This document shows positions 228-62,889 of a DNA stretch of 64,000 bases, piece after piece. Position 1 is the stretch's first letter. The number at the start of each line of letters is the position of its first letter. The notes beneath the pieces are model-generated. The model was given only the letters and a program-made list of their open reading frames with translations. It did no database searches and was not told the DNA's origin. Location: contig NW_023501039.1 of assembly GCF_014066305.1 (NCBI RefSeq), positions 1,116,001 through 1,180,000 of the forward strand. The letters run 5' to 3'. Origin of the DNA: Letharia columbiana (taxonomy: Eukaryota > Ascomycota > Lecanoromycetes > Lecanorales > Parmeliaceae). The translations under genes and the position numbers were made by a program.

Positions 228-2199
228 TTACTGCCCATGGCCGTTCGCGGCCTCCAAATGGAAGACAGCTCTCAACGCAGTACCAAACCTCTCAATTGCT
301 TCAGCCACTTGGTCCGCGGGGGCAGCAGCAAAGGTAGTCCGGAAGAACATGTCGTCTCCCGGATTGCCAGTCTCAGCCCGGAACCAGCTGCCTTTCGATA
401 TCAAAGTTCCTCTTTCAATGGCAGCATGAAAGATCTCGTCCTCAATCTCAAGCATCGATTTTCCCTCTTTCGAAGGATGCTTTCGCCAATCAATCTTGAT
501 CCAGTGAAACATGCCCGCCATCGGCGGATTCCAACTCGCTACTTCCCTCGGTAGGTATTCTTCACAAGCGTAGCAGATGTTGTCTCTTCTTTTCGTATAT
601 TCCAGTCTGATGTTGATCAGCCAGTCAAGGTAGCCTGCATGTCCCCACGTCTCTTCTAGCAACTTGAACATGATCAACTGAGAAGGCCCGCTGGGAGTCT
701 GGGTGCACGTTTCGGAGTGCCGCACGAAACGCTCAATTATTTGTTCCGAGGCTGTGATCCAGCCTAATCGCATACCAGGAGCGATGACTTTGGAGAAGGA
801 GTCCAGGCGCATGACTCGACCGTCAATGTCCATGCTGAGCAGGGAGGGAACCAGGGCGTCTATGAAGGCGCTGTGAGAGGATGGAGGTGGGACGTCAGGA
901 GCATTTGGACCGGTGTAAGGTTGCATTTGTAGAAAGAAGTATGGCTCGTCTTCGAGTATGTAGATATCGTGCTTTTGGGCCATGCGGTAGATATCTCTTC
1001 TTCGCTGCTTGGACTGTGTGGCACCTGTGGGGTTCTGGCCGGAAGGTACAGTGTAGAGCAACCAAGGTTTGGGAGCACCATTGTGAGCGGCTGAATCCCA
1101 ATTGCTAATGATCGAATCTAGGTGTGAGGGAAGAAGACCTTGTTCATCCATCTTTACGCCTATGCATTGCACGCCCATCGGTCGAGCTGTTTCAGCGGCT
1201 GAGGAGAAGGTGAACTCTTCGGTCAGGATGCAATCGCCACGCGTGCAGAACATGCGGTATGCTATATCGAGAGCAGAAGTGTTGCCAACGGTCATAGAAC
1301 ATTGCCAGTCTTTGTATGGCGGATGGTGTACAATCTGGCAAGGCTTCATCAGCATCGATTTGGGCGCTTCATTCAGAGTCCCGCACCTCTGTATGCTCTG
1401 TGATGAATCGCAACATCTGTGCCGACCCTGTCGACTGACCGTAGTTAAGGGCCACATGGATGTCTGCACCCTGTATCTCAGTCGCTGTTGTAGCTCTAAC
1501 TCGTCATCTGTCGAGCGTACCGTATATGCTCTTTCCTTCCGCAATATCATGCTTTCCTATCCTCTTGACTACCCCAGACTCTTTCGTCTCCTGCTCTGAG
1601 AAGTGTGGTGGTACGGGTACTTTGATATCGATGTGCTCTAGAGGAAAATACTGGCTCGAAGGTAGACCGCCGCCCAGAGATATTAGGCCTTCAATGTTTG
1701 AGAACAGGTCCTGTGGTTTCGGTAATCTACGTGGTAGGCCACTCACCAGGGATTGTCAAATATTTGGCAGCTCCTTTCAAGGAAGACGGCTGTCGCAATG
1801 TCAGTAATCGGCAACGAATAGTCTGACCCCTTCCTCATTTCGATCTTGTTCTGACCTGTCTTGCCAAGCTTTCTTCACTCAATCGATCTGCTACCCCATC
1901 AGCTCTATGCCCACTGGTCCTGACACAGGTGGATGGATACGAACGTACGATCCCATCTTTTCGCCTTTGGTTTACCATGTCCCTATTACCCGATCAGAAC
2001 GTCGTCCCCCCAGAGCCAAGCTGCAAAGCCTCACGGGACTCTTGAACATGTCACTACTGGCATGCGCCGCTATGCCTCCAGCAATTCTTGGCGCCTTGGA
2101 GCGTCGCGCTGCAACGCCATTGACGCTGAGCTTATCAGAAAAGGTAGCGATCTGTGTATCTGTCGTGCTTCGCACGTCCAGGGCCGATGGAGGCACCAT
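228..2199 (-). CDS. aro8: Aromatic amino acid aminotransferase (Aro8/kynurenine aminotransferase type)
   Basis: PLP-dependent class I/II aminotransferase of about 541 aa, likely acting on aromatic amino acids or kynurenine/aminoadipate in the cytosol. I build seven exons: 2199-2035, 1982-1949, 1887-1856, 1789-1747, 1688-1521, 1463-1387 and 1334-228. They sum to 1626 nt. The joins restore family blocks such as KPKAKRWD, ISLGGGLPSS, ALNYGQSTGSAQ and TEHTEIVHHPPYKDW. The PLP lysine lies in SFSKVIAPG (about residue 355); YTVPSGQNPTG carries the substrate and cofactor asparagine region. The ATG at 2199 begins MVPPSALDV, which fits the N-terminal extension of fungal Aro8 proteins. No lesion is seen. 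The stop is 227 bp from the left window edge. Confidence 0.9.
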
Positions 2200-12212: not shown

Positions 12213-12891
12213 TCAGGGCTTCTCCGCCTTCATCTTAACACTCCCAATGTAGTCCAATTTCCCGACAGGCACCCCGTTGTGTCTAAGGATGTCATAGGCC
12301 GTCGTGAGGTGGAAGTAGAAATTCGGCAGCACGAAATCCAAGACGTAACTCTTCGCGGTGGTAAACTCCAACGTCGCCACTTTCACGTTCAGGACTATCT
12401 CCTCCTCCTCCTTCCCGTCCATGCCGTCCTCCGGCACCGTCTTCAGGAAGTCAATCGTCTTCTGAATGCGTGTCTGTAGCTCTTCAAAGGTGGTTTCGTC
12501 GTCTGGCATTGGGACGGCTTCGACTCCGGCGAGGCGGGCGGCGGAATCTTTGGCGTGATCGCTGACTCTCTGGATTTGATATGGTAGAGCGGCCATGTCT
12601 TCGATCAGGCGGGCTTCGAGAAGGTGGGCTGGGGGGAGGTTTCTGGTGGAGTGGTGGAGTCAGCGCTTTGTTATTTCAGATGAGCATTTCGGGTTCTCGA
12701 AGGATGTTTCTGGAGTACGGAAGTTGGGAGATATGTCTCAGGACTCCCGAGGATGCCCAAAAAGGAGAAATGGGGCTGGAGGATTCATACTGTGCATCGG
12801 CGTAGGTTGAGCCCTTAGAGAGGATGGCGGAAAGGTTGGTGAGGCCGCGGATGAAGACCGGGACAGTGATGTCGTAGAGGGAGAGAGGCAT
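12213..12891 (-). CDS. DUF1993 family protein
   Basis: Protein of 176 aa from exons 12891-12791 and 12642-12213, spliced through a 148-bp intron with donor GTATGA. It starts MPLSLYDITVPVFIRGLTNL, the typical opening of DUF1993 proteins, which are predicted helical bundles related in fold to DinB-like proteins. It continues QNLPPAHLLEARLIEDM and ends with FYFHLTTAYDILRHNG and a GKLDYIGS turn. These blocks are conserved in fungal and bacterial members. The biochemical function is not established. No catalytic residues can be named. Confidence 0.85.
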
Positions 12892-13466: not shown

Positions 13467-14156
13467 TTAGCTTTCTGGCAATCGCAACATGTACCTAAAT
13501 TTATACATCCCCCATCCCCATCCCCCTTCCATGCCACCAGGAGCAAACTCTCTAAGGTCGACCTCGAAGCTGCCGACGTCCTTGAATGCTGCCTTCAGGT
13601 AGATGCCATGAGCGGCTTGCGAAGACTGCAGCCAGCAATACAAGCCATGATCATCAGCCTTGTCCGTGACCCAGCGTACCAACGCAGTGCCAACGCCATG
13701 ACCTTGCGCAGCTGGGTCAACGACGAGCGTGTCGAAATGTATGTACTTTCTGTTGGCCATCCAATCCTTCTGGACTCTGACGTAGTCCTCCTTGAGCACT
13801 GAGCGGAGAGTGCGGCCATCATCTTTCTTATCTTTCGTCTCGCCTTTCACTCCTTCGACCCTCGTAATCCCTCCCTTGCTCTCCAAGTGATCATCCTTGT
13901 CAAGGAAGCGGCATGCTTGCCATCCCAGGATGTTGCCTGTACCTTTGCTGATGGCCTTGATCACTGCGAATTGGGGGTTGGAAAACTGTGCCTTGAGCAT
14001 GTCCAGCAGCATGCTTTCGTACTCGTCGTTGTTCTTGAACATGAGCCGTGCCGAGTTGTCATGCGAAAAGGCGGCCATGTGGACGCGTATGAGTGATGGT
14101 ATATCATCTTCCGAGGCTGGGAGAAGGAATGTTGCGGCAGAGCCAGGTGGATTCAT
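13467..14156 (-). CDS. GNAT-family N-acetyltransferase (copy 1)
   Basis: Single-exon 229-aa protein with a GNAT fold. The N-terminal helix region reads DIPSLIRVHMAAFSHD. The acetyl-CoA motif A is intact as AAQGHGVGTALV (Q-x-x-G-x-G pattern). The C-terminal strand ends FRYMLRLPES. It differs from the 22-34 kb paralogues in keeping motif A intact, but shares their overall plan: AAF/xxSARLM near the N-terminus and a final YMLRLP strand like the zinc-finger fusion protein. The substrate is unknown. It lies immediately downstream (3') of the repeat precursor on the same strand, so it could act on that product, but this is speculative. Confidence 0.85.
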   Translation of the reverse strand: MNPPGSAATFLLPASEDDIPSLIRVHMAAFSHDNSARLMFKNNDEYESMLLDMLKAQFSNPQFAVIKAISKGTGNILGWQACRFLDKDDHLESKGGITRVEGVKGETKDKKDDGRTLRSVLKEDYVRVQKDWMANRKYIHFDTLVVDPAAQGHGVGTALVRWVTDKADDHGLYCWLQSSQAAHGIYLKAAFKDVGSFEVDLREFAPGGMEGGWGWGMYKFRYMLRLPES

Positions 14157-14753: not shown

Positions 14754-15139
14754 TCAGGGCTGAGGCGTAGGGTAGTTCGCACGCTTGAGCTGCTTGGATT
14801 TGGCAGCCACAGGTGCCCTTTTCTCGACCGACCAGATCCCAGGCGCGCCGGGTTCATCATCCGCCCTTTTCTCCACTGACCAGATGCTAGGCGCGCCGGG
14901 TTCATCATCTGCCCTTTTCTCGGCCGACCAGTTCTTAGGCAAGCCGGGTTGCTCATCTGCCCTTTCCTCCATATGAACCACCGCAGTCTGCTCAGCGCGT
15001 ACCTCTTCGACCATAGCTGTATGGTGTGTTAGCATCGTGATGGCTTTCACTATGAAGATAACGTACCACCGCGTCTGCCGATAGGAGTGCCAAGGACACT
15101 GAGGGCCAGGGTTGCCAGGAGGACAATCGTGAAAAGCAT
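14754..15139 (-). CDS. Secreted Kex2-processed repeat precursor (candidate RiPP precursor)
   Basis: Predicted 111-aa pre-propeptide from exons 15139-15067 and 15016-14754 (50-bp intron, donor GTACGT). Residues 1-18 form a signal peptide (MLFTIVLLATLALSVLG). A short spacer leads to three 16-residue tandem units of pattern ADxxPGxPxxWSxEKR, each ending in a Kex2 dibasic site. A further KR precedes the last eight residues. The unit sequences are ADEQPGLPKNWSAEKR, ADDEPGAPSIWSVEKR and ADDEPGAPGIWSVEKR. Repeated cores bounded by KR are the design of fungal KEP/dikaritin precursors, and a UstYa-like gene lies 1.4 kb upstream on the same strand. The units lack Tyr; Trp is the only aromatic residue. 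Alternatives are a pheromone-like or repellent-like precursor. Confidence 0.8.
14817..14960 (-). repeat. Three 48-bp tandem repeats in the precursor
   Basis: Units at 14960-14913, 14912-14865 and 14864-14817 code the three 16-residue peptides. Units 2 and 3 differ by a few bases; unit 1 is more diverged. The repeat stays in frame, which shows selection for the peptide repeat. Confidence 0.9.
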
Positions 15140-16551
15140 CGTGTCGATCGTCGCTTTCAAAAGGGCGCTATCAGCACACTGACTGCAATAGCAGGACAAA
15201 CAGCTGACTTACTAAATTATTTATCGTATTGGGGTTGGATGTGAAATCGATGTGAACTTGGTGGTGTCGTTTCTACTTCTGGTGTTTGGCTTTGATAAAA
15301 GCGATTGCTTCTGAAAAGTGAGGCAAGGGAGAGAGAAGGAGGAGGATCTTTGCTTTGTATAATAGAGCCTTGGGTCTTCGGCTCCTCTTCTCGATCAAGG
15401 GTGACTTGGATTTTAGCCCCAAGAGAGTTTTTCCGATCAATGTGCGTCGAGGCTCCTCGCTCGTCTTGCTGGGATGAGGCAAGCAAATGACTGTCAATGT
15501 TTCAAAAATGATGAGTCGAGACCACTAGGCGGGTAGGTGCACACCGATGATCTGATGTCTAGCCCGGAATACTTGTGGAGACATAATCGTCCGCGGCCGT
15601 ACAGGACCCTGCTTCTCCCCTCTGGACCGCCAATGTGCGAAGGAAGAGTGCCTGATACGGCGAAGGTAATAGGCCAGGACTTGCCAGGTACCTCCGTCAC
15701 CGCCTCCCGAGTCGCCGGGCTCGTGATTTTTGGTAATTCTATGTTCACCAAACGGGTCGGTGCTACGATGTTCAAGTCCGACTTCCTAGTTCGGAGACTT
15801 CCTGATTGACAGAGGGGTTTTAACGGCCGTTCAGGACCCTGCTTCAATTATGCGGGCCGCCACTCGGTGGAGAAGAAGTCAAACATATTGGAGATGATCT
15901 AGCAGGTCCGTAGCATTGGCAACCCTGCCTAAAGGTGCTTGACTAGCTTCGTGGCTCTGGTGGAAGATGCCGTTCCTTCACTAGGATGACGGCGCAGACC
16001 TTATTCGGGGTACTGTAGGCTCGTTGAAGGCCCTTCACCACGAGATACCAAAATGCAGCTTTGATGGCCGTCTGGTAGGCGGGTCTAGCTTTGGTGTTCT
16101 GGCGCAGATGGAAGGCCTTGTAGATGAAACAGAACCAGCTTCCCTGTTCCGGACCGCCACACTGATTATCTCTTGGACAAGGTCACAATTTGCGAACAGT
16201 CGGCTACATGCGTCAGAAAAATCTCCAAGAGTATGTATCGTCTTGTCTGTTGTGGTGGCAATTGTTAATGAAGGCTTCTGGCAGATTCTACGTGGATGAA
16301 TGATCGTCTCAAGGTATCATCAGTAACAGCATCATCATTAAACGACGATGAATAAGAAATTCTATTACTTGCTCTTAGTGCTGTCATGATCGAGGCTTTG
16401 TGTCCGTGGACAATTGGGCGGAACTGCGGGACAGTTTGCCTGAAGGCCTAGCACTAAGCCAACGCATACAACATCAAATGTAAGCAGGGTCTACCATACA
16501 CAATAGGATCAAATTCTTAAGAGGTCTCCCCAGACTAAAATGCCGGTCCGA
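15140..16551. other. Intergenic 1.4 kb between precursor and UstYa gene
   Basis: No supportable gene. It contains the precursor promoter. Two direct copies of a 22-bp sequence (CGGCCGTWCAGGACCCTGCT followed by TC) lie at 15594-15615 and 15824-15845 with one mismatch. The frames that remain open here do not resemble a known cluster enzyme. Confidence 0.5.
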
Positions 16552-17462
16552 CTATTTAGGTTCTGGATCTCCTCGAGATGAGACATAGTCGTAGTTGATA
16601 ACTCGACCGGGGATTGTCTCTTCGTCCGAGATCTTGATCCACTCGCTGGCATTCTTGCCATCATAGACCCTCCATTTCTCCGCGAAACGAAACACTCTAT
16701 CAAAGTCTCGACACTTGTGCTCGCCGTATCCTGTAAACGCCGCGTCCCGTGTCCCCAACGCCACTCGAAATTCCAGATTCGTGTCGACGTGGCATTGGAG
16801 TGCCTGGCGGATGTAGTCCAGACAGTGCACCATGTGCTTGTCCGTCTCGGTTGTCGCGGCGCGCTGTTGACCGGCGAAGTAGTTCTTGCGTATGGTAGCC
16901 TTGTGGGTCGGATCAGCAAAGGTTTGTCCTGGAGATGGGAATGGAATAACTCACAAGACAATGAAGCTGGTGGACGAAAGCTAGATTGACTATTTCTGGA
17001 CCAATAACCGGATGCTGCACAACACCAAGACCGTCTAAGCATTCATCAGTGCGGCTCTTTCCATCGTGGGCTGAATTAGACATACTTGGGAGAATACTGC
17101 GCCATGCTTCATCACTCTCCGGCGACGGTTTCATCCTGAACTTCTCGTCGAGCGTAAATTCTGTGGAGAAGAGACCAGGGGGAACTGTAACGCGAATCTC
17201 GGTTAGCTACGATCTCTTTGGCAGATGCCTTCTCCGGAGACGTACTCAGAATCGAGAGGTCTTCCGCAAGTGCTGTCTCGTTTGAAAAGACGTATTGGCC
17301 GGCGACGAGGCTCATAATCGTGAAGACGCAACCACAAAGAAAGCAGGCCAAACTCGAGACCCATTTCCACAGCTTCCGGCTGACATTTCTGGTACCAATT
17401 CTCGAGGGAGTCGCGACTTCTTCGTCGTGCTCCTTGTTCTGGAGAAGATGATATGCTGCCAT
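16552..17462 (-). CDS. UstYa-like oxidase (DUF3328)
   Basis: Predicted 247-aa single-pass membrane protein from exons 17462-17246, 17184-17086, 17034-16955 and 16899-16552. A transmembrane helix lies at about residues 33-55 (VSSLACFLCGCVFTIMSLVA). The globular part has both family HxxHC motifs, VHQLHC and HMVHC, followed by LDYIRQALQCHVDT, the usual setting of the second motif. GLGVVQHPVIGPEIV and the C-terminal HKCRDFDRVFRFAEKW also fit. UstYa/UstYb proteins catalyse oxidative cyclisation of dikaritin RiPPs (ustiloxin, asperipin, phomopsin types). The nearby repeat precursor makes that role likely here. A second UstY gene is not seen in the window. Confidence 0.88.
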
Positions 17463-19776: not shown

Positions 19777-21199
19777 ATGGGAGACGGTCAAACTGTAAAC
19801 GGCCAAGCAAAGGTCATCGTCGCTGTTAGTGCCGTCCTATCAGCTTTAGCCATCCTAGCCGTCGCTCTCCGCTTCTACACCAAAACTTACAAAAGCGCAA
19901 GAATCCATAAGGAAGACTGGCTGATCCTTGGTGGTCTGGTAAGATCATTCTACCCTGGCTGATTTGAGTGGCTGCATTATTTTCTCTCTCAAATTCGCTT
20001 ACAGAACGTCAGGCTCTCACGCTTGGTGTTACTATCAACAACATCGTCGGAGTCGCAGTCGGTGGCATTGGCGAGCAGGAGATATGGACCAACATTTACG
20101 CTGGCGATGGTGTTCCATTGTTCCCCACTCCCAAAGAGTTGCTGCCTGATGGCAAGGTCATGTTTGTGATGCAAATCATGCATACATGTGCCATGCCGGT
20201 CATCAAAGCTTCGGTCCTGACTTTTTACTGGCGTATCTTCGTCACTCCGGTCAACTCCTCTCGCAACCTCAGAATTGCAATCTGGGTGATCGCCACCTAT
20301 GTGCTCCTCTGGTGGATCAGCATCTTTTTCGCCACTCTTTTCCAGTGCAATCCGATCTCAGACAATTGGGGAACCAATCCCTTGCAGCTACCAGGCTGTC
20401 CGAACAACATCAACGTCATGTATCAGACTGCCGCATTCACAAATCTCGTCAGCGATATAGTAATCCTGGCGCTTCCCTTTTTCCCTATGAGGAAGGTTCA
20501 GCTTCCCCTGGAGAAAAAAGTCGCAGTGCTATGCATCTTCATGACTGGTGCCGTGTAAGCAAACAATGTCACCGTCAATGAGAGAATGGAAAGCTAAATT
20601 TGTTATCTAGTGTAGTCGTAGCTGGTATTGGTCGAACGGTGTCCTACTTTAAGCTTCGAGACCTCGCAGACTTCAACTTTTCATGTGAGCAACTAATTCA
20701 TCCTCTTCCCGCTCAACGATCCATCTTCAAGTCTTCTCTCCGCCCTCCACCTCAGCTTTCTCACTAATTCTTACGCTTAGTCCACTATTATTGGATCGTG
20801 CTCTGGACCTCCATCGAGCCTACTCTTGGCGTCATCGGCGCCTGCCTCCCCACCCTGCGCCCTTTCTTCAACGGCGTATCGCCAGAGTCCGTCATCCGTT
20901 CCATCCGCAGCCAGATCAGTCTTCGCTCCTTGCGCTCTCCCAAAAGTTCCCCAAAAAGTTCCCCTAAAAGCTCTCCCAAAGGTTCCCACAATACGACCAG
21001 TCGCCCCGGACCTGCAAGCGAATCGAACGAGAGATTTGCGCACTCGGTTGAGGCCGTGGAGGGTTTTGGTACCGTCGACAATCATATCACCTCTATGGAA
21101 TTGCAGGACAGGAATCAGTTGGAGAAGATTTCGGATGGCAGGGGGAACAGTATCCACGTTAATCGGGACATTCATCAGCGCACTGAGGATATGGTGTGA
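19777..21199 (+). CDS. Rhodopsin-like (SAT4-type) integral membrane protein
   Basis: Predicted 398-aa seven-helix fungal plasma-membrane protein of the SAT4 family. Exons are 19777-19938, 20013-20554, 20611-20684 and 20781-21199. Hydrophobic segments include KVIVAVSAVLSALAILAVAL, the ALTLGVTINNIVGVAVGG region, IWVIATYVLLWWISIFFATL, LVSDIVILALPFF and VAVLCIFMTGAVVVVAGIG. The family hallmarks HKEDWLIL (loop 1) and FQCNPI..W (loop 4) are present, with a GIWTxxE-like segment WIVLWTSIEPTLGVIGACLP near helix 7. The C-terminus is Ser/Lys/Pro-rich with a KSSPKSSPKSSP repeat. Such proteins are common near secondary-metabolite genes. The ligand is unknown. Confidence 0.87.
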
Positions 21200-27583: not shown

Positions 27584-28546
27584 CTAGTGGGTCGTAGTGT
27601 TTGCAGAAGCCGAGGACGGAGGGGACGTGCTCCTCGGATTGGGCACATGTCCACGAGTACCTTCGGCCTCGGCCGTCTCAGCTATCGCCCTTTCCAGCAG
27701 CGATTCGGCTCTGCTACCTAGCTTCATCTGCCTCCATGTCTGTATGCCGAGTTGTCTCCCATGAACACCCATAGCCACTTCCTCCGGAGGCTTGAAGGCA
27801 TTGAGATCCAAACCGAAGGTACCGACGTCATGAAATCCGTTACGCCCTTGATGATATCAAAGTCAGCAGTACTCTTTCGGGAGAAACTCTGAGTCGCGAG
27901 ACATGTCTTAGGAGCAGAGAAATCTTGAAATATGTCTGACAATCCGTAAAACCGAGTGGATGGGGAAGAATTTCCTCGGAAAGTATCACGTACAGAACAA
28001 ACCCTCGTATACAGTTGGGGTCTGGACCCATATGGCCCAGTCAGTGCTTCTAGCACGGTCCACGGCGCACCTCAAGAGCTTCCCAGCAACGCCGAGACGC
28101 CTGTACTCTGGGTCGGTGACGATGGTGTTTATCACTAGCCTATGTCTGAGCATGTGGAGACTCTGGCCATGGCGAGATCTGTCTTCTAGCTGCGCGGCGA
28201 GAGGGTAGCGATAGTCGCTCGCGTAGCTATGTATCAATTTCTGCGCTGCCCAGCTTGTCATCTCGTTGAATGCAAATTCCGGCACTCGCCCCAGTGCAGG
28301 TATGACGCCAAAAGACATCCAGCCAGCGAGGCGTCTTGTATGCCGAGCCACAGCTAGTCTGAACTGGATGGCGTCATCGTCGATGTAGTCGTGGAGGATC
28401 TCTTGTATAATTGGCACAATTTCATCTTTTGTATACATGAGTTTGACGGAACCATCTAGGTCAAATGAATTGATGAAGACGTGGGCCATCGTGGAAACAC
28501 TGGAGTGCTGGGCTGGCAGAATGTCGATGTCCAGAATACTTTGCAT
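27584..28546 (-). CDS. GNAT-family N-acetyltransferase (copy 6)
   Basis: Predicted 271 aa from exons 28546-27994 and 27846-27584 (147-bp intron, donor GTACGT). Blocks: MAHVFINSFDLDGSVKLMY, IIQEILHDYIDDDAIQFRLA, HRLVINTIVTDPEYRRLGVA, then WAIWVQTP and, across the intron, LFWRNGFHDVGTFGLDLNAF. Motif A RRLGVA is intact, so this is the best candidate for an active enzyme among the stand-alone copies of the array. The C-terminus is longer and Ser/Thr/Pro-rich and lacks the usual final strand. Confidence 0.82.
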
Positions 28547-29609
28547 GGCGGCAGCTGTCTAGGGGTAGGAAAGCGTTTTTGGCGGTCCCTGGTTGAGTAT
28601 GAGGAAAGCCTTTTTGGTGGCAGCTGGTTTGGTAGGTGGAGGGTCTTTTGTGAGCTGATGACAGCGAAAAGGCTTTTCGAGGCGTTTCCCAGTGGTAACG
28701 CCGAGTCGTGGAAGGATGGAGTAGAATTGTGGGGAAGTATGTGAATGTCTAGAAGACCGGAAGCCAGGAGGCAACAACAAGGTCCATGCAGTCCAGCATA
28801 GCTGGCAGCGTATGAGATCATCACGATAGGGTCGAACCGGCCTCTTGATGAGAGGAAATGGTAGTCATCGCAATTGGACGTTGAGGTTCACGTGCCAGGA
28901 AGGGTGAGTGCTGTGGATGGTTAGGGTAACTCGTCAAGACCGTGCAAACCTGGTCCTGAGCTCTCACTGCAGGACCGCGGACCCGAAGAGCTCATAGGTT
29001 GAAGGGTAATTCAGGCACCAAGTGTTATGAGGACGTATCATACGACTGGCCAATTTTGAACACGATTCGATGTCAAAGCCTACCCTTCCGACACTTTGAC
29101 CCCTCACGGCTGTTGTCCGTGTAGGAACCTAGCTCAAGACATGGCTTGCCGAAATTGACTATCGTCTCGAAACGTCGAGCCGCATAATTGGCCAAGTCTG
29201 AGAGGGTTTCCGTACTGTACTGATGTTCTATTGGAGTACAGCGCTGGGAAGCGCTGAGAAATACTTGCCACCTGGTGCTGGCTCGCCATTTGACGGGTGA
29301 AAGCCGAACCAACCTGGGTCCAAAACTGCTCCACCCCCAGGTACATTGTTTCTTGAGGGATTGTCCCCTCTTGCTTTGGGCGTAGGATCATCGAGCAGAG
29401 CTATTTTAGTTCTGCCCTGCTCCCGGTCTTATTGGTACCATTGGCTTGTTAGTTTTGCGAATACTGGGGGCGGCCAACAGGCCACATAGCTCCCCGAAAA
29501 AAAGTGATAGCTCATTTTCAAAGAGAAAACACAGCATAATCATGGGACCGCCAACCGGACAAAATGTGCGCTATCCAGGCGGCACACTGGGGTTGAGACT
29601 TATTTCTTG
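28547..29609. other. Intergenic 1.1 kb
   Basis: No supportable gene. It contains the copy 6 promoter and the 3' region of the fusion gene. Confidence 0.5.
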
Positions 29610-32309
29610 CTAGGCTGATTTCACTTTTACCGGCTGAGGCAAGCGCAGCATGTAGTTCCATTTGTAAGTACCAAGCGAGACTCCTTTCCCCTTATCGCAC
29701 TGCCGAGACCCCGAGGCATAGGAATCCAGATCCAAGTTCAGCTCACCAGCACATGTGAAGCCTGCTCGCCGAAAAAGCCCCTCCTTGAGCGCTCCCTGCG
29801 CAACTGCAGGGTCTTCCGGTGCCTGAACCCAGATTGGTCTCTTTCTCATGTCCGCGATCTCTGTGATGGAATTGAGTAGCGCAGAGGCGACTCCACGTCC
29901 TTGGTGTAGAGGATGAACGACGAGGGCATTGATGACCAGACGACCAATGGGGACAAGGTACATTTGGGCCTCGGTGGCTCGAGCCTGGATCGTCGACGCG
30001 AGACCTTGGCCGACCTTTCTCTGCTTCGAATGCTCAGCTTTCTCCTTTGCGCTTTCCTTCGTTGTTGTGAATCTTGATATTTGCGAAGGCAGGACGTGTG
30101 CAGCTGTCGTCCAGTCCAGGTACGCTGATGGATCTACGGGCCTTGCTTGATGCGCATCTACCTCCTGACATGCGACCCATCCAACAACCTCGCCAGTGGA
30201 TTCCCTCACGGCAGCATGGAGCACAAAGTCCCGTTCATGGTAACCTCGTTCGAGCATGGTGAATATGGCAGCCCAAAGGTCCCCGTTACTAGACATGAGC
30301 CTAGCAGACGGGTCGCGATCAAAGACGCTTGCGAATATAGTCGACATTGGGCCAAAGTGCGTCTTTTCTGGCAAAACCACCCTGAAGGGGACTTCATGGT
30401 GAAAGACGCCCGTTTCCGTTGAAGATTGTGACGAAAGAGGGGACGATGCATCGTAGTACCACTGGGCCTTGTTGAATTCAGATTCTTCTGTATCTCCCTC
30501 GGCTTCGGAAGCCTTAGGAGCAGACTGTTCTGGTTCGGCTTCTTCTTCTTCTTCTTCTTCTTCTTCAGCCTGTCGTTCAGGTTCTTGCTGAGCTTCTTGC
30601 TCAGGATCTACAAGATCCCATCTGAAAGTGCTCATGTTCGACTCAAGATTAACAACTCTGGATCTTTTCCGTAGTATGTCCAGATGAGCATTCAGTGGAT
30701 CCATAACAGGATGGCTTCCCATTGCAAGCAGGACATCTCTAGCGATTGTCTCCGCATTGTATTTCGAGCGCCTGAGGGCGTCTCGACGCTTGTGTATAGG
30801 CTGTACGATATCTTTCTGTTGTAAGACGTCCTGTCTAGGTGGCGTGTACACTGGCTCGACACTCCCACTATTTTCTTCGACAATAGTAGACAGCGGTTTA
30901 AGTACGAGGGAAGACGACTTTTTCTCGTTTCGATGTAAGTCCGCTGCCTGCGGTACAAAGACATTTTCCTGACGTTGGTGTCCGCTGCGAGCATAAAATT
31001 TGACGGTTCCCTCAAGACTCGGGTGATCAGTCCACTTCAATCTGTCGGGATTGCCATATTTGGTGATGCACCCAACAAAGTGTCCCTTGACACCGCGTGC
31101 TCGTGTAAACTGTGTATCGCATCTTGGACAATGATGCCGACCGCCGTTCGTTCTGACCTTCTTTGGGGAGGCTTTCTCCTTGGAATAGACGCCGCAGGCC
31201 TTTGTATAGACAGTGGTGTCAGTCCTACTAGACTGTCCATCGGTACAATATCTATAGTCCTTGTGTTCGGCAGATCTTAAACTGACTGTGAGCTGCGATA
31301 TAGGAGCTAGTGGGCGGACATTGGGCGTGGGGATACGCGGTGCAGCCGTTGGGGTAATTTTGGAGCCATGGCTGGAGACCTGACATTTGCCGCTGGCGTC
31401 TGAAGTGGATCTAGTACTGAAGCTAGAGTTCGACGGGCAAGCATTGTCATGTCCATTTCCTCCCTTGATACGAATGGTAGGCCGTTTGGCAAAACTTTTC
31501 GACTCAGAGCAATGTTCGTGAGCTTCCGTTGGATCTGAAGTCGACGTGCCACTCAGGGTCTGTTTCGTAGGAAGGCGTATAAGCAGGCCTTTTCGTGGGC
31601 TATCCTCCAACGATTCAGGGTTTTGTCTCTTGGGCTGACTCAACCGAAGCCGAATGGGACGGACCTCCTCCACTGGTGTGACGGTCTCTTCATGTCCTTC
31701 ACGACAGTGGCGGGGGAGTTGCAAAGGCTTGCTGAACGTCTGATGGCGAGACTCGTATCCGCACGGCTGGAGAATTCTGCTCATATGACTATTCTCATGG
31801 TGGATCAATCCCCCACGATCACAGAAACTTTTGTTGCAACCTTCGTGAGTGCAAGCAAAAGGTCGCTCTCTTGTATGCATCTGCATATGGGCCTCCAAAG
31901 ATTCCCTTCGAGCGAATGTCCTGCTGCAAGAACCATGTTCGCAAGCCAAGGGGCGCTGCTTGTGCGCGCGGTGATGCTCAGTCAGTTTTTCACGATCCTG
32001 GAAAGCCTCGCCGCACGAGTCGTACTTGCAGGCGAAAGGCCGCTCGTTTGCATGAGTTAGGTGATGCTGATTCAAGGCCCCACGGTCATGAAAAGCCTCG
32101 CCGCAAGACCCGTAGTCGCAAGCATAAGGACGCTGATCCGTATGCCTGCGGTAGTGGGCCTCGAAAGTTGATATACTCTTGAAGCTCTGCCATTGAACAA
32201 AGACTAAATCAGCATATATTTATTCAAAGAATTGGATAGCTTTGTTGCTTACCTTACTACATCCATCCCACTCGCACTGGTACGACCAAAACTTCCGAGC
32301 ACTGGCCAT
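29610..32309 (-). CDS. C2H2 zinc-finger / GNAT fusion protein (copy 7)
   Basis: Predicted 877 aa from exons 32309-32253 and 32186-29610 (66-bp intron). Five consecutive C2H2 fingers of the Cys-X4-Cys type occupy about residues 10-155: YQCEWDGC, YACDYGSC, FACKYDSC, LACEHGSC and FACTHEGC, with degenerate linkers such as HTRERP. A decayed sixth follows (CGYESRH). A single C2HC-type finger (HHCPRCDTQFTRARGVKGHF) lies in the middle, then a Glu-rich run near residue 560. From about residue 627 a full GNAT domain follows: MSTIFASVFDRDPSARLMS, INALVVHPLHQGRGVASALL with intact motif A, RPIWVQAP, AGFTCAGELNLDLDSY and KWNYMLRLP. The second exon is open across the whole fusion, so the joint is real in this sequence. 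DNA binding plus acetyltransfer is inferred. Confidence 0.85.
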
Positions 32310-61528: not shown

Positions 61529-62889
61529 TCAAAGCGACAAGGCGAGTGCGAGTCTACTTACGAGTGCTGGCGAGGCTTTCAAAGAATCTGGAAAACCATT
61601 GCAAGCGTAAGCTGTCACATTGCTATTATGTGGAATGATAACGGTAATGTTGGTATGTGGGGAACAGTCCTGGCCCATTTGGCCGACGGTCAGAAAGCCA
61701 TACGCTTCGATATTAATATGGTTTGAATATTCGACACCTATGCTCCCACAAGAGTTGCCACCCAGAACACTGTGCATTTTGTTCAGCAAATCATATGTTG
61801 TGGATCCGTTGCCGGTAGCGACGCCTCGGTAGAAGACACAGATGTCGGGGCCGCCATTATCATTGCAGTATATAGGTTGAGTGGTCAGGGCCCTGATGTC
61901 AGAATCCTTGTAGTACAGTTTGACGGCTTCCAGGAGTATCCCAATAGCGCCGTTGTTGTTAGGTCCACAATCGTTGCCCCATCTATGATTGTTGAGGCCG
62001 GAATTGTATTCATTACCTCCGGGTGCGGGCAGGGTAGTAGGGGCCGTTGCGACGCAGTCGTAGAGGTAGTTGACGACGATGCCGGCGACATGAGTACAGG
62101 GAGGTTGAGTGGCTCGCTTGCAGTCGAACCATGTGTTGGTGGTGCCACGCTCGTTCAAGGTTTGCTCCTGGCTCAGGTAGTCGAGGAGGGTGTAGCCACT
62201 GCCGGGCCCGTAATTATTTTGGTGAGTATCGTTCCACCACGTGAAAGCACCGTATTGTTGTTCAGTGGCTGCGTCAAACGGAACCCAAGGTGAACCGGCA
62301 TTACCCCAAAATCTAATGATGAACGTTAACTAACTACAGGGCCTGGCACAGTGGAACAAGGCGAGTACCTACGCGCAGGGCTGGTCATCTTGACATGCAT
62401 ACTGTGTGCATGTGTTGATGTCGAAAGGTGTGGGAGTGTTGGTGTCGGAACCAGGTAGAGGAGGATAAAACTGGGCCGGTTGAGCGTTTTCATCCGACCC
62501 GGGGTATACTCCGTATTGCATTGTATTGATCCAAAAGCCAGAATCCCAGGGCTGCGGAACCGCTACAGTGGGATCGCTGCCTGCCGTGAGGAAGGCCGAG
62601 TATAGCGAGCCATTCATGTAATAAGTACGCATACCCTGATCTGGCGTAGTCGTATATTTAGTTGTGCCAGTGGTGCAGATTTGTAAGGCCTGGGCAGATT
62701 TATTTGTCAGATCACGGAGACAGGACTGGAAGAAATGCGGTTATTGTTACTCACGGTGAAATGATAGCCGGGTTGCGGCTCAACAACGCATTGCCCCGTG
62801 TTTCCAGGAGGGTACGGGGCCCACGGGGAGCTTGCTACAAGCCCGAGTTGAGCAATGACGGTTGCTGTAGCTATTGTAAAGTAATTCAT
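61529..62889 (-). CDS. Secreted Cys-rich protein, possible KP4-like C-terminal domain
   Basis: 411 aa from exons 62889-62755, 62689-62373 and 62312-61529. A signal peptide is clear (MNYFTIATATVIAQLGLVAS). The middle part is Pro/Asp-rich with several cysteines (CTQYACQDDQPCA). The last 120 residues contain an arrangement of cysteines and short blocks (ICVFYRGV, then LNKMHSVLGGNSCGSIGVEY and GFLTVG) that resembles the pattern of the KP4 killer-protein family: an ICxF-type strand, a Leu-rich helix, GC/CGS and an LTV strand. I rate the family call as tentative. No break is seen. A role as secreted antimicrobial or effector is only a hypothesis. Confidence 0.6.

Follow-up and report, generated by a model that had tools for sequence, protein, structure and literature searches.

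A Kex2-repeat precursor gene paired with a UstYa gene in Letharia columbiana: a probable dikaritin-like locus with Trp-centred repeats

Results and Discussion

The window analysed here is a 64-kb stretch of DNA of the wolf lichen fungus Letharia columbiana (contig C4, 1116001-1180000; the assembly comprises 52.2 Mb in 161 contigs). It contains a gene for a putatively secreted Kex2-repeat precursor and, close by, a gene for a UstYa/DUF3328 protein. We consider it probable that this locus is a dikaritin-like RiPP pathway in which the UstYa protein oxidises a Trp-centred core of the precursor. An unstudied lichen peptide pathway may have its missing substrate in this precursor, which gives an orphan lichen cluster, Clan R2, a named candidate precursor with putative processing sites and peptide masses that are testable.

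Gene Model and Repeats of the Precursor

The precursor gene (HO173_001841; 14754..15139, minus strand) has two exons, 15139-15067 and 15016-14754, separated by a 50-nt intron (15066-15017) of the form GTACGT...CTAAC...CATACAG. The coding sequence, 336 nt with the stop codon, specifies 111 residues. In a protein search the product was identical over all 111 residues to the public model HO173_001841 of Letharia columbiana, so that an independent annotation agrees on the splice. The protein begins with MLFTIVLLATLALSVLG (15089..15139, minus strand), which hydropathy and alignment mark as a signal-sequence-like start and which has a similar counterpart in P0004, the precursor of Alectoria sarmentosa; its assignment as an ER signal sequence was judged from hydropathy alone. 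Three 16-residue repeats, ADEQPGLPKNWSAEKR, ADDEPGAPSIWSVEKR and ADDEPGAPGIWSVEKR, occupy residues 44-91 (14817..14960, minus strand; coordinates derived from the exon limits), and are followed by the C-terminal part APVAAKSKQLKR, the last Kex2 fragment ANYPTPQP and the stop codon (14754..14816, minus strand). All three repeats end in KR, giving the protein the Kex2-repeat character of a dikaritin RiPP precursor, and [KR]R sites are found at residues 22, 58, 74, 90 and 102. Tyr occurs in none of the three repeats and is present in the non-repeated fragment ANYPTPQP. The Letharia precursor stops at this fragment (14754-14780); several relatives run on to WRPDA or similar.

The best tandem identity within the precursor is 0.94, against a shuffle maximum of 0.58, and it was not reached in any of 2000 protein shuffles. 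The gene model and repeats of the preliminary description, which had reported a secreted 111-residue precursor with three KR-closed 16-residue repeats, were reproduced in this way. A six-frame Kex2-repeat detector (score >=6) marked the precursor as the single place in the 64-kb window; 20 control windows, shuffled in blocks of six bases, gave none. In a search of the 52-Mb Letharia genome nothing but the precursor itself matched. For the predicted linear peptides ADDEPGAPSIWSVE, ADDEPGAPGIWSVE and ADEQPGLPKNWSAE the computed [M+H]+ values are 1472.654, 1442.643 and 1541.723, respectively, and for ANYPTPQP the value is 887.426.

A signal-like start followed by KR-bounded repeats is also the architecture of alpha-type mating pheromone precursors, whose repeated unit resembles W-C-x3-G-Q-x-C. 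No unit of this kind is present in the Letharia precursor, the repeats differ strongly among its relatives, and mating-factor and pheromone KEPs, three exceptions aside, are not found beside DUF3328 genes in the published survey (PMC7329392). That the gene encodes the alpha-type pheromone precursor of Letharia is, on these grounds, extremely improbable. When the fixed-spacing pheromone pattern was searched for elsewhere in the genome, it gave three matches (two of them letter-identical) versus two for the reversed control; the frames at these matches contained no KR-bounded repeats, and no alpha-pheromone gene of the Letharia genome was identified by this route.

The UstYa Gene

The UstYa/DUF3328 gene (16552..17462, minus strand) consists of four exons (17462-17246, 17184-17086, 17034-16955 and 16899-16552) encoding 247 residues, and its introns of 61, 51 and 55 nt are all GT...AG. 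The protein contains HQLHC and HMVHC, with both motifs intact, carries a hydrophobic segment near its N-terminus (residues 35-53), and matches the Pfam family UstYa (PF11807) with 83.3 bits against a cut-off of 25. It lies on the same strand as the precursor gene across an intergenic gap of 1,412 bp. The four-exon DUF3328 neighbour described earlier, about 1.4 kb away and with both HxxHC motifs and an N-terminal hydrophobic segment, is thereby borne out. No second UstYa match was found in the 64-kb window.

The gene probably encodes a copper-using peptide oxidase. In CctR, a DUF3328 dicopper oxidase, two coppers are held by the HxxHC pair, which thereby supports the hydroxylation of C-H bonds (PMC12435403), and UstY enzymes, which have a dicopper site, make the ether between Tyr-O and Phe-C-beta of asperipin-2a (PMC12186524). 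An AlphaFold model of the UstYa protein (P0006 with eight relatives) was discarded, as its mean pLDDT was 42.6. A search of solved structures by sequence returned two weak matches, with E values of 0.3 and 0.43, which we regard as chance.

Pairing of the Two Genes in Relatives

A single-sequence search recovered five precursors, and a profile of those five recovered 18, the Letharia precursor being counted both times. The UstYa search returned 15 proteins, among them proteins from Alectoria fallacina, Puttea exsequens and Lecanora helva. Linkage between the two sets was read from exactly equal contig sizes, not from contig DNA. By this measure P0004 and the UstYa relative P0008 share a contig of 40,611 bases, and the precursor P0026 and the UstYa protein P0007 of Alectoria fallacina share one of 48,292 bases. 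The other 15 of the 17 precursors showed no link to a UstYa relative by equal contig size, and the UstYa contigs of Puttea exsequens and Lecanora helva matched no precursor found. By equal contig sizes, the expectation that the pair recurs in relatives holds for two of 17 precursors, both from Alectoria, and the proposed pairing of a KEP-type precursor with a UstYa homologue is supported by the window pair together with these two cases. Several of the UstYa relatives are fragments. HxxHC motif 2 is kept in all nine aligned relatives and motif 1 in six; in the remaining three, the region of motif 1 is absent from the predicted protein.

The alternative on which these data bear is that the precursor is an ordinary secreted Kex2-repeat protein releasing unmodified linear peptides, and that the UstYa gene is a mere neighbour or serves something else. 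Such an arrangement would be in keeping with fungal KEPs at large: DUF3328 genes lie near 22% of 7878 of them, so that 78% are not linked, and the two groups contain W at similar frequencies, 20.5% of 1758 DUF3328-linked KEPs versus 24.5% in the other group (PMC7329392). Because W is not enriched in the linked group, Trp alone is no argument for modification. The Tyr-free Letharia repeats, the N-glycosylation-like sequons in 11 of 56 family units and the 15 precursors without a shown UstYa linkage point in the same direction. Weighing against it are the two additional pairs of relatives, one of each gene, on contigs of equal size, the retention of both catalytic motifs by the window's UstYa protein and of motif 2 (9/9) and motif 1 (6/9) by its relatives, and the plausible repeat precursors in five of the 15 remaining neighbourhoods of Letharia UstYa genes, described below. 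We therefore regard an ordinary secreted protein as unlikely and the precursor-UstYa pairing as likely to be meaningful.

A Trp Cassette Shared by the Precursor Family

Fifty-six repeat units were picked by eye from the 18 precursors, and a script confirmed each in its protein. Fifty-five of them were kept from 70 listed cassette matches, overlapping, leader and tail matches being dropped, and one was added, the first unit of P0027, which the pattern had missed. Trp is present in 51 of the 56 units (45 of the 50 distinct units) and missing from five, and is thus the aromatic residue that the family repeats conserve; Pro is present in 45 units and Tyr in four. Since some of the 18 precursors are near-duplicates (P0001/P0002, P0004/P0005/P0026 and P0025/P0029), these unit counts are not independent. 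In 40 of the 45 distinct units with Trp, this residue is preceded by I, V or L; after it come V or I at +2 in 42 units, E at +3 in 39, K at +4 in 39 and R at +5 in 42. The main cassette shared by the 18 precursors is [IVL]W[SA]VEKR, and the rest of the unit varies.

The stretches preceding the cassette differ (EPGAPSI, ENGTPDL, ENGTI, EPDTHGV and others), and because the residues there are variable, PGxPxxW, the core proposed in the preliminary description, is the Letharia version only. It is present in just two Letharia-type sequences, P0001 (the Letharia columbiana precursor) and P0002, and we rejected it as a family motif in favour of the cassette. The accompanying claim that the cores lack Tyr and have Trp as their sole aromatic residue is correct for the Letharia repeats, but does not extend to ANYPTPQP or to the four Tyr-containing units of the family.

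The Tyr of the last fragment could mean that the true product is this C-terminal Kex2 peptide, ANYPTPQP in Letharia and longer in relatives, with the Trp repeats serving for recognition or as spacers. All of the first five aligned precursors carry KR-ANY without change, and it is Tyr from which the ether ring of ustiloxins, asperipin-2a and phomopsins is made (PMC7329392). However, the tail is present once per precursor, as against two to five repeat units, P0026 and P0027 have lost both its KR and its Tyr, and no tail of the KR-ANY type is seen in the predicted proteins P0030 to P0033. Because two relatives have lost KR and Tyr at this position, we keep the tail as sole core as a minor and quite improbable reading, and take the repeat units to be the substrate of the UstYa protein in what follows.

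Kex2-Repeat Genes near Other UstYa Genes of Letharia

The Letharia genome gave 35 exon-level matches to PF11807, which we grouped into 16 neighbourhoods, and 16 ten-kb stretches were read, covering the 15 neighbourhoods besides the window's. Run with a cut-off at 7 identical residues, the Kex2-repeat detector was positive in seven of the 16 UstYa stretches and in one of eight controls (none of six other window tiles and one of two random stretches). On these raw matches the association of UstYa genes with Kex2 repeats inside the Letharia genome is only suggestive, and the published genome-wide enrichment is the stronger support (PMC7329392). The one control match (L052) was a low-complexity RERD-rich frame. 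The detector was also negative on three 3-kb stretches taken from the pheromone search.

Five matches were accepted as plausible precursors: L034 (QDFDAVYDHDHGEHLDSDAIYDHA), L036 (SDPAKDYIYPFKTYPEEE), L038 (DAAYGVYE), L044 (EEPDGDLYEYKKA) and L049 (ADVDNAWGGGTE). A plausible Kex2-repeat gene is thus found in five of the 15 other UstYa neighbourhoods, or in six of 16 when the window's is included. Signal-like starts precede the repeats in four of the five; in L038, the fifth, one was judged by eye to lie within the open frame. Overlapping-frame shadows in L036, L044 and L049 were excluded from the count of plausible precursors, as were the matches in L042 and L043, which we judged to be Arg-rich non-KEP frames.

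Four of the five accepted precursors have Tyr repeats, located at 5343-5879 of L034, 7418-7750 of L036, 7159-7485 of L038 and 7570-8010 of L044. In the fifth, L049, Trp is the repeats' only aromatic residue, so that repeats of this composition are found in two of the six plausible neighbourhoods, the window's and that of L049. The KR-closed units of L049 (2317-2883, minus strand; about 28.3-28.9 kb on contig C70) lie some 2 kb away from a further UstYa gene of the genome.

Comparison with Dikaritins and Proposed Pathway

Dikaritin loci combine a UstYa/DUF3328 gene with a neighbouring gene for a secreted Kex2-repeat precursor (PMC10512285), and the Letharia precursor adjoins its UstYa gene as do those of ustiloxin, phomopsin, asperipin-2a, epichloecyclin and victorin. 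It differs from them in that the repeats of its family are Trp-centred and mostly Tyr-free. Ustiloxin-like peptides have been described as unable to cyclise without a conserved Tyr (PMC6339444); Tyr in the repeated core, expected of a dikaritin, was found in none of the three Letharia units and in 4/56 of the family. The Letharia locus has one UstYa gene, and no tyrosinase was recognised among the frames scanned. In carrying W and P, the Letharia repeats resemble the type P-3 KEPs of Umemura 2020, which are DUF3328-linked repeats with these two residues (PMC7329392), a likeness drawn from the description of P-3 and not from its sequences. Since repeats with Trp had been described close to DUF3328 genes as early as 2020, the Tyr-free Trp core is less exceptional than the departure from described cores that it was first taken for. 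We regard the Letharia locus as a variant within the KEP-UstYa kind and not as a kind of its own.

In the dikaritin-like pathway that we favour, the precursor would enter the secretory pathway via its predicted signal sequence, and the membrane-anchored UstYa protein would use its paired HxxHC dicopper site to oxidise the repeat units, presumably at or beside the conserved Trp as the most likely site. To judge from the positions of the KR pairs, Kex2 would then cut after each KR and a carboxypeptidase would remove KR, so that peptides some 14 residues long, for example ADDEPGAPSIWSVE, or trimmed forms of them would be released. Linkage and motif retention together make it rather probable that the UstYa protein acts on the repeat units. 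We propose only tentatively that the outcome is a ring or other oxidation involving Trp. It is likewise possible, though doubtful, that this lichen UstYa lineage makes a Trp-centred oxidative modification, with the flanking GNAT as a tailoring enzyme; an example may be a bond from the indole to the neighbouring Ile, Val or Leu side chain of the [IVL]W pair. Trp crosslinks are known from other enzyme classes, and no UstY product with a Trp crosslink was found among the literature matches listed. If true, the indole-[IVL] bond would be a dicopper fungal counterpart of such crosslinks. The family represents a set of naturally varied Trp cores, maybe of one enzyme lineage, and would be useful for studying DUF3328 action beyond Tyr.

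Neighbouring Genes and Clan R2

Clan R2, a RiPP cluster of Parmeliaceae described by Pasinato and Singh in 2025, has one ustY homologue and flanking GNAT copies, with aminotransferase, DUF1993, prefoldin and cytochrome c oxidase biogenesis genes among its less conserved members (PMC12048977). Its authors identified no conserved repeated regions, and their lichen RiPP survey left the precursor as an open question; the main text of the survey does not name Letharia or Alectoria, and to its date no RiPP had been characterised from Lecanoromycetes (PMC12048977).

Like Clan R2, the window has a single ustY homologue with GNAT on both sides, namely a GNAT acetyltransferase gene adjoining the precursor (13467..14156, minus strand) and a GNAT-containing frame on the far side of the UstYa gene (27989..28558, minus strand). 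A DUF1993 gene (12213..12596, minus strand) and a class I/II aminotransferase gene (231..1556, minus strand) are also nearby. By their Pfam matches and the gene content of Clan R2, the two GNAT sequences and the DUF1993 gene are possible cluster members; the aminotransferase, 13 kb distant from the precursor, may be ordinary flank. Because GNAT, DUF1993 and aminotransferase match the published gene content, we take the window to be a Clan R2 locus. It is likely that the precursor is the unrecognised precursor of Clan R2, the match being one of described gene content and not of clan sequences. What sets the window apart from Clan R2 as described is its three-repeat precursor, 1.4 kb from the ustY gene. 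No earlier link of this precursor to Clan R2 was found among the literature matches listed or in passages of PMC12048977 and PMC12711211.

The preliminary description had called the locus minimal. The pair itself stands, but since the GNAT and DUF1993 genes next door fit a published conserved cluster, the term is doubtful. The GNAT open frame has no signal-like start, as judged by eye, and a role on a secretory peptide is therefore uncertain. Prefoldin and cytochrome c oxidase biogenesis genes were not seen in the window frames scanned with Pfam, nor was there a Pfam match to a tyrosinase, methyltransferase, peptidase or transporter, the types of gene looked for in ustiloxin/phomopsin-type clusters, in 49 chosen frames and the spliced UstYa gene, a frame-based scan that can miss intron-split genes and frames not chosen. 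The asperipin-2a locus, whose core is Tyr-rich, is similar in having one ustY homologue per cluster. It also has a reductase and a transporter, which are absent from the description of Clan R2 (PMC12048977); genes of these types were not recognised among the window frames scanned.

Three further frames of the window were noted in the same scan. One at 29613-32219 (minus strand) combines C2H2 zinc fingers and a GNAT domain in a single frame of 869 residues, one at 61532-62329 (minus strand) has a weak Pfam Kp4 match below the cut-off, and one near the UstYa gene (19968-20555, plus strand) encodes a membrane protein with a fungal rhodopsin domain.
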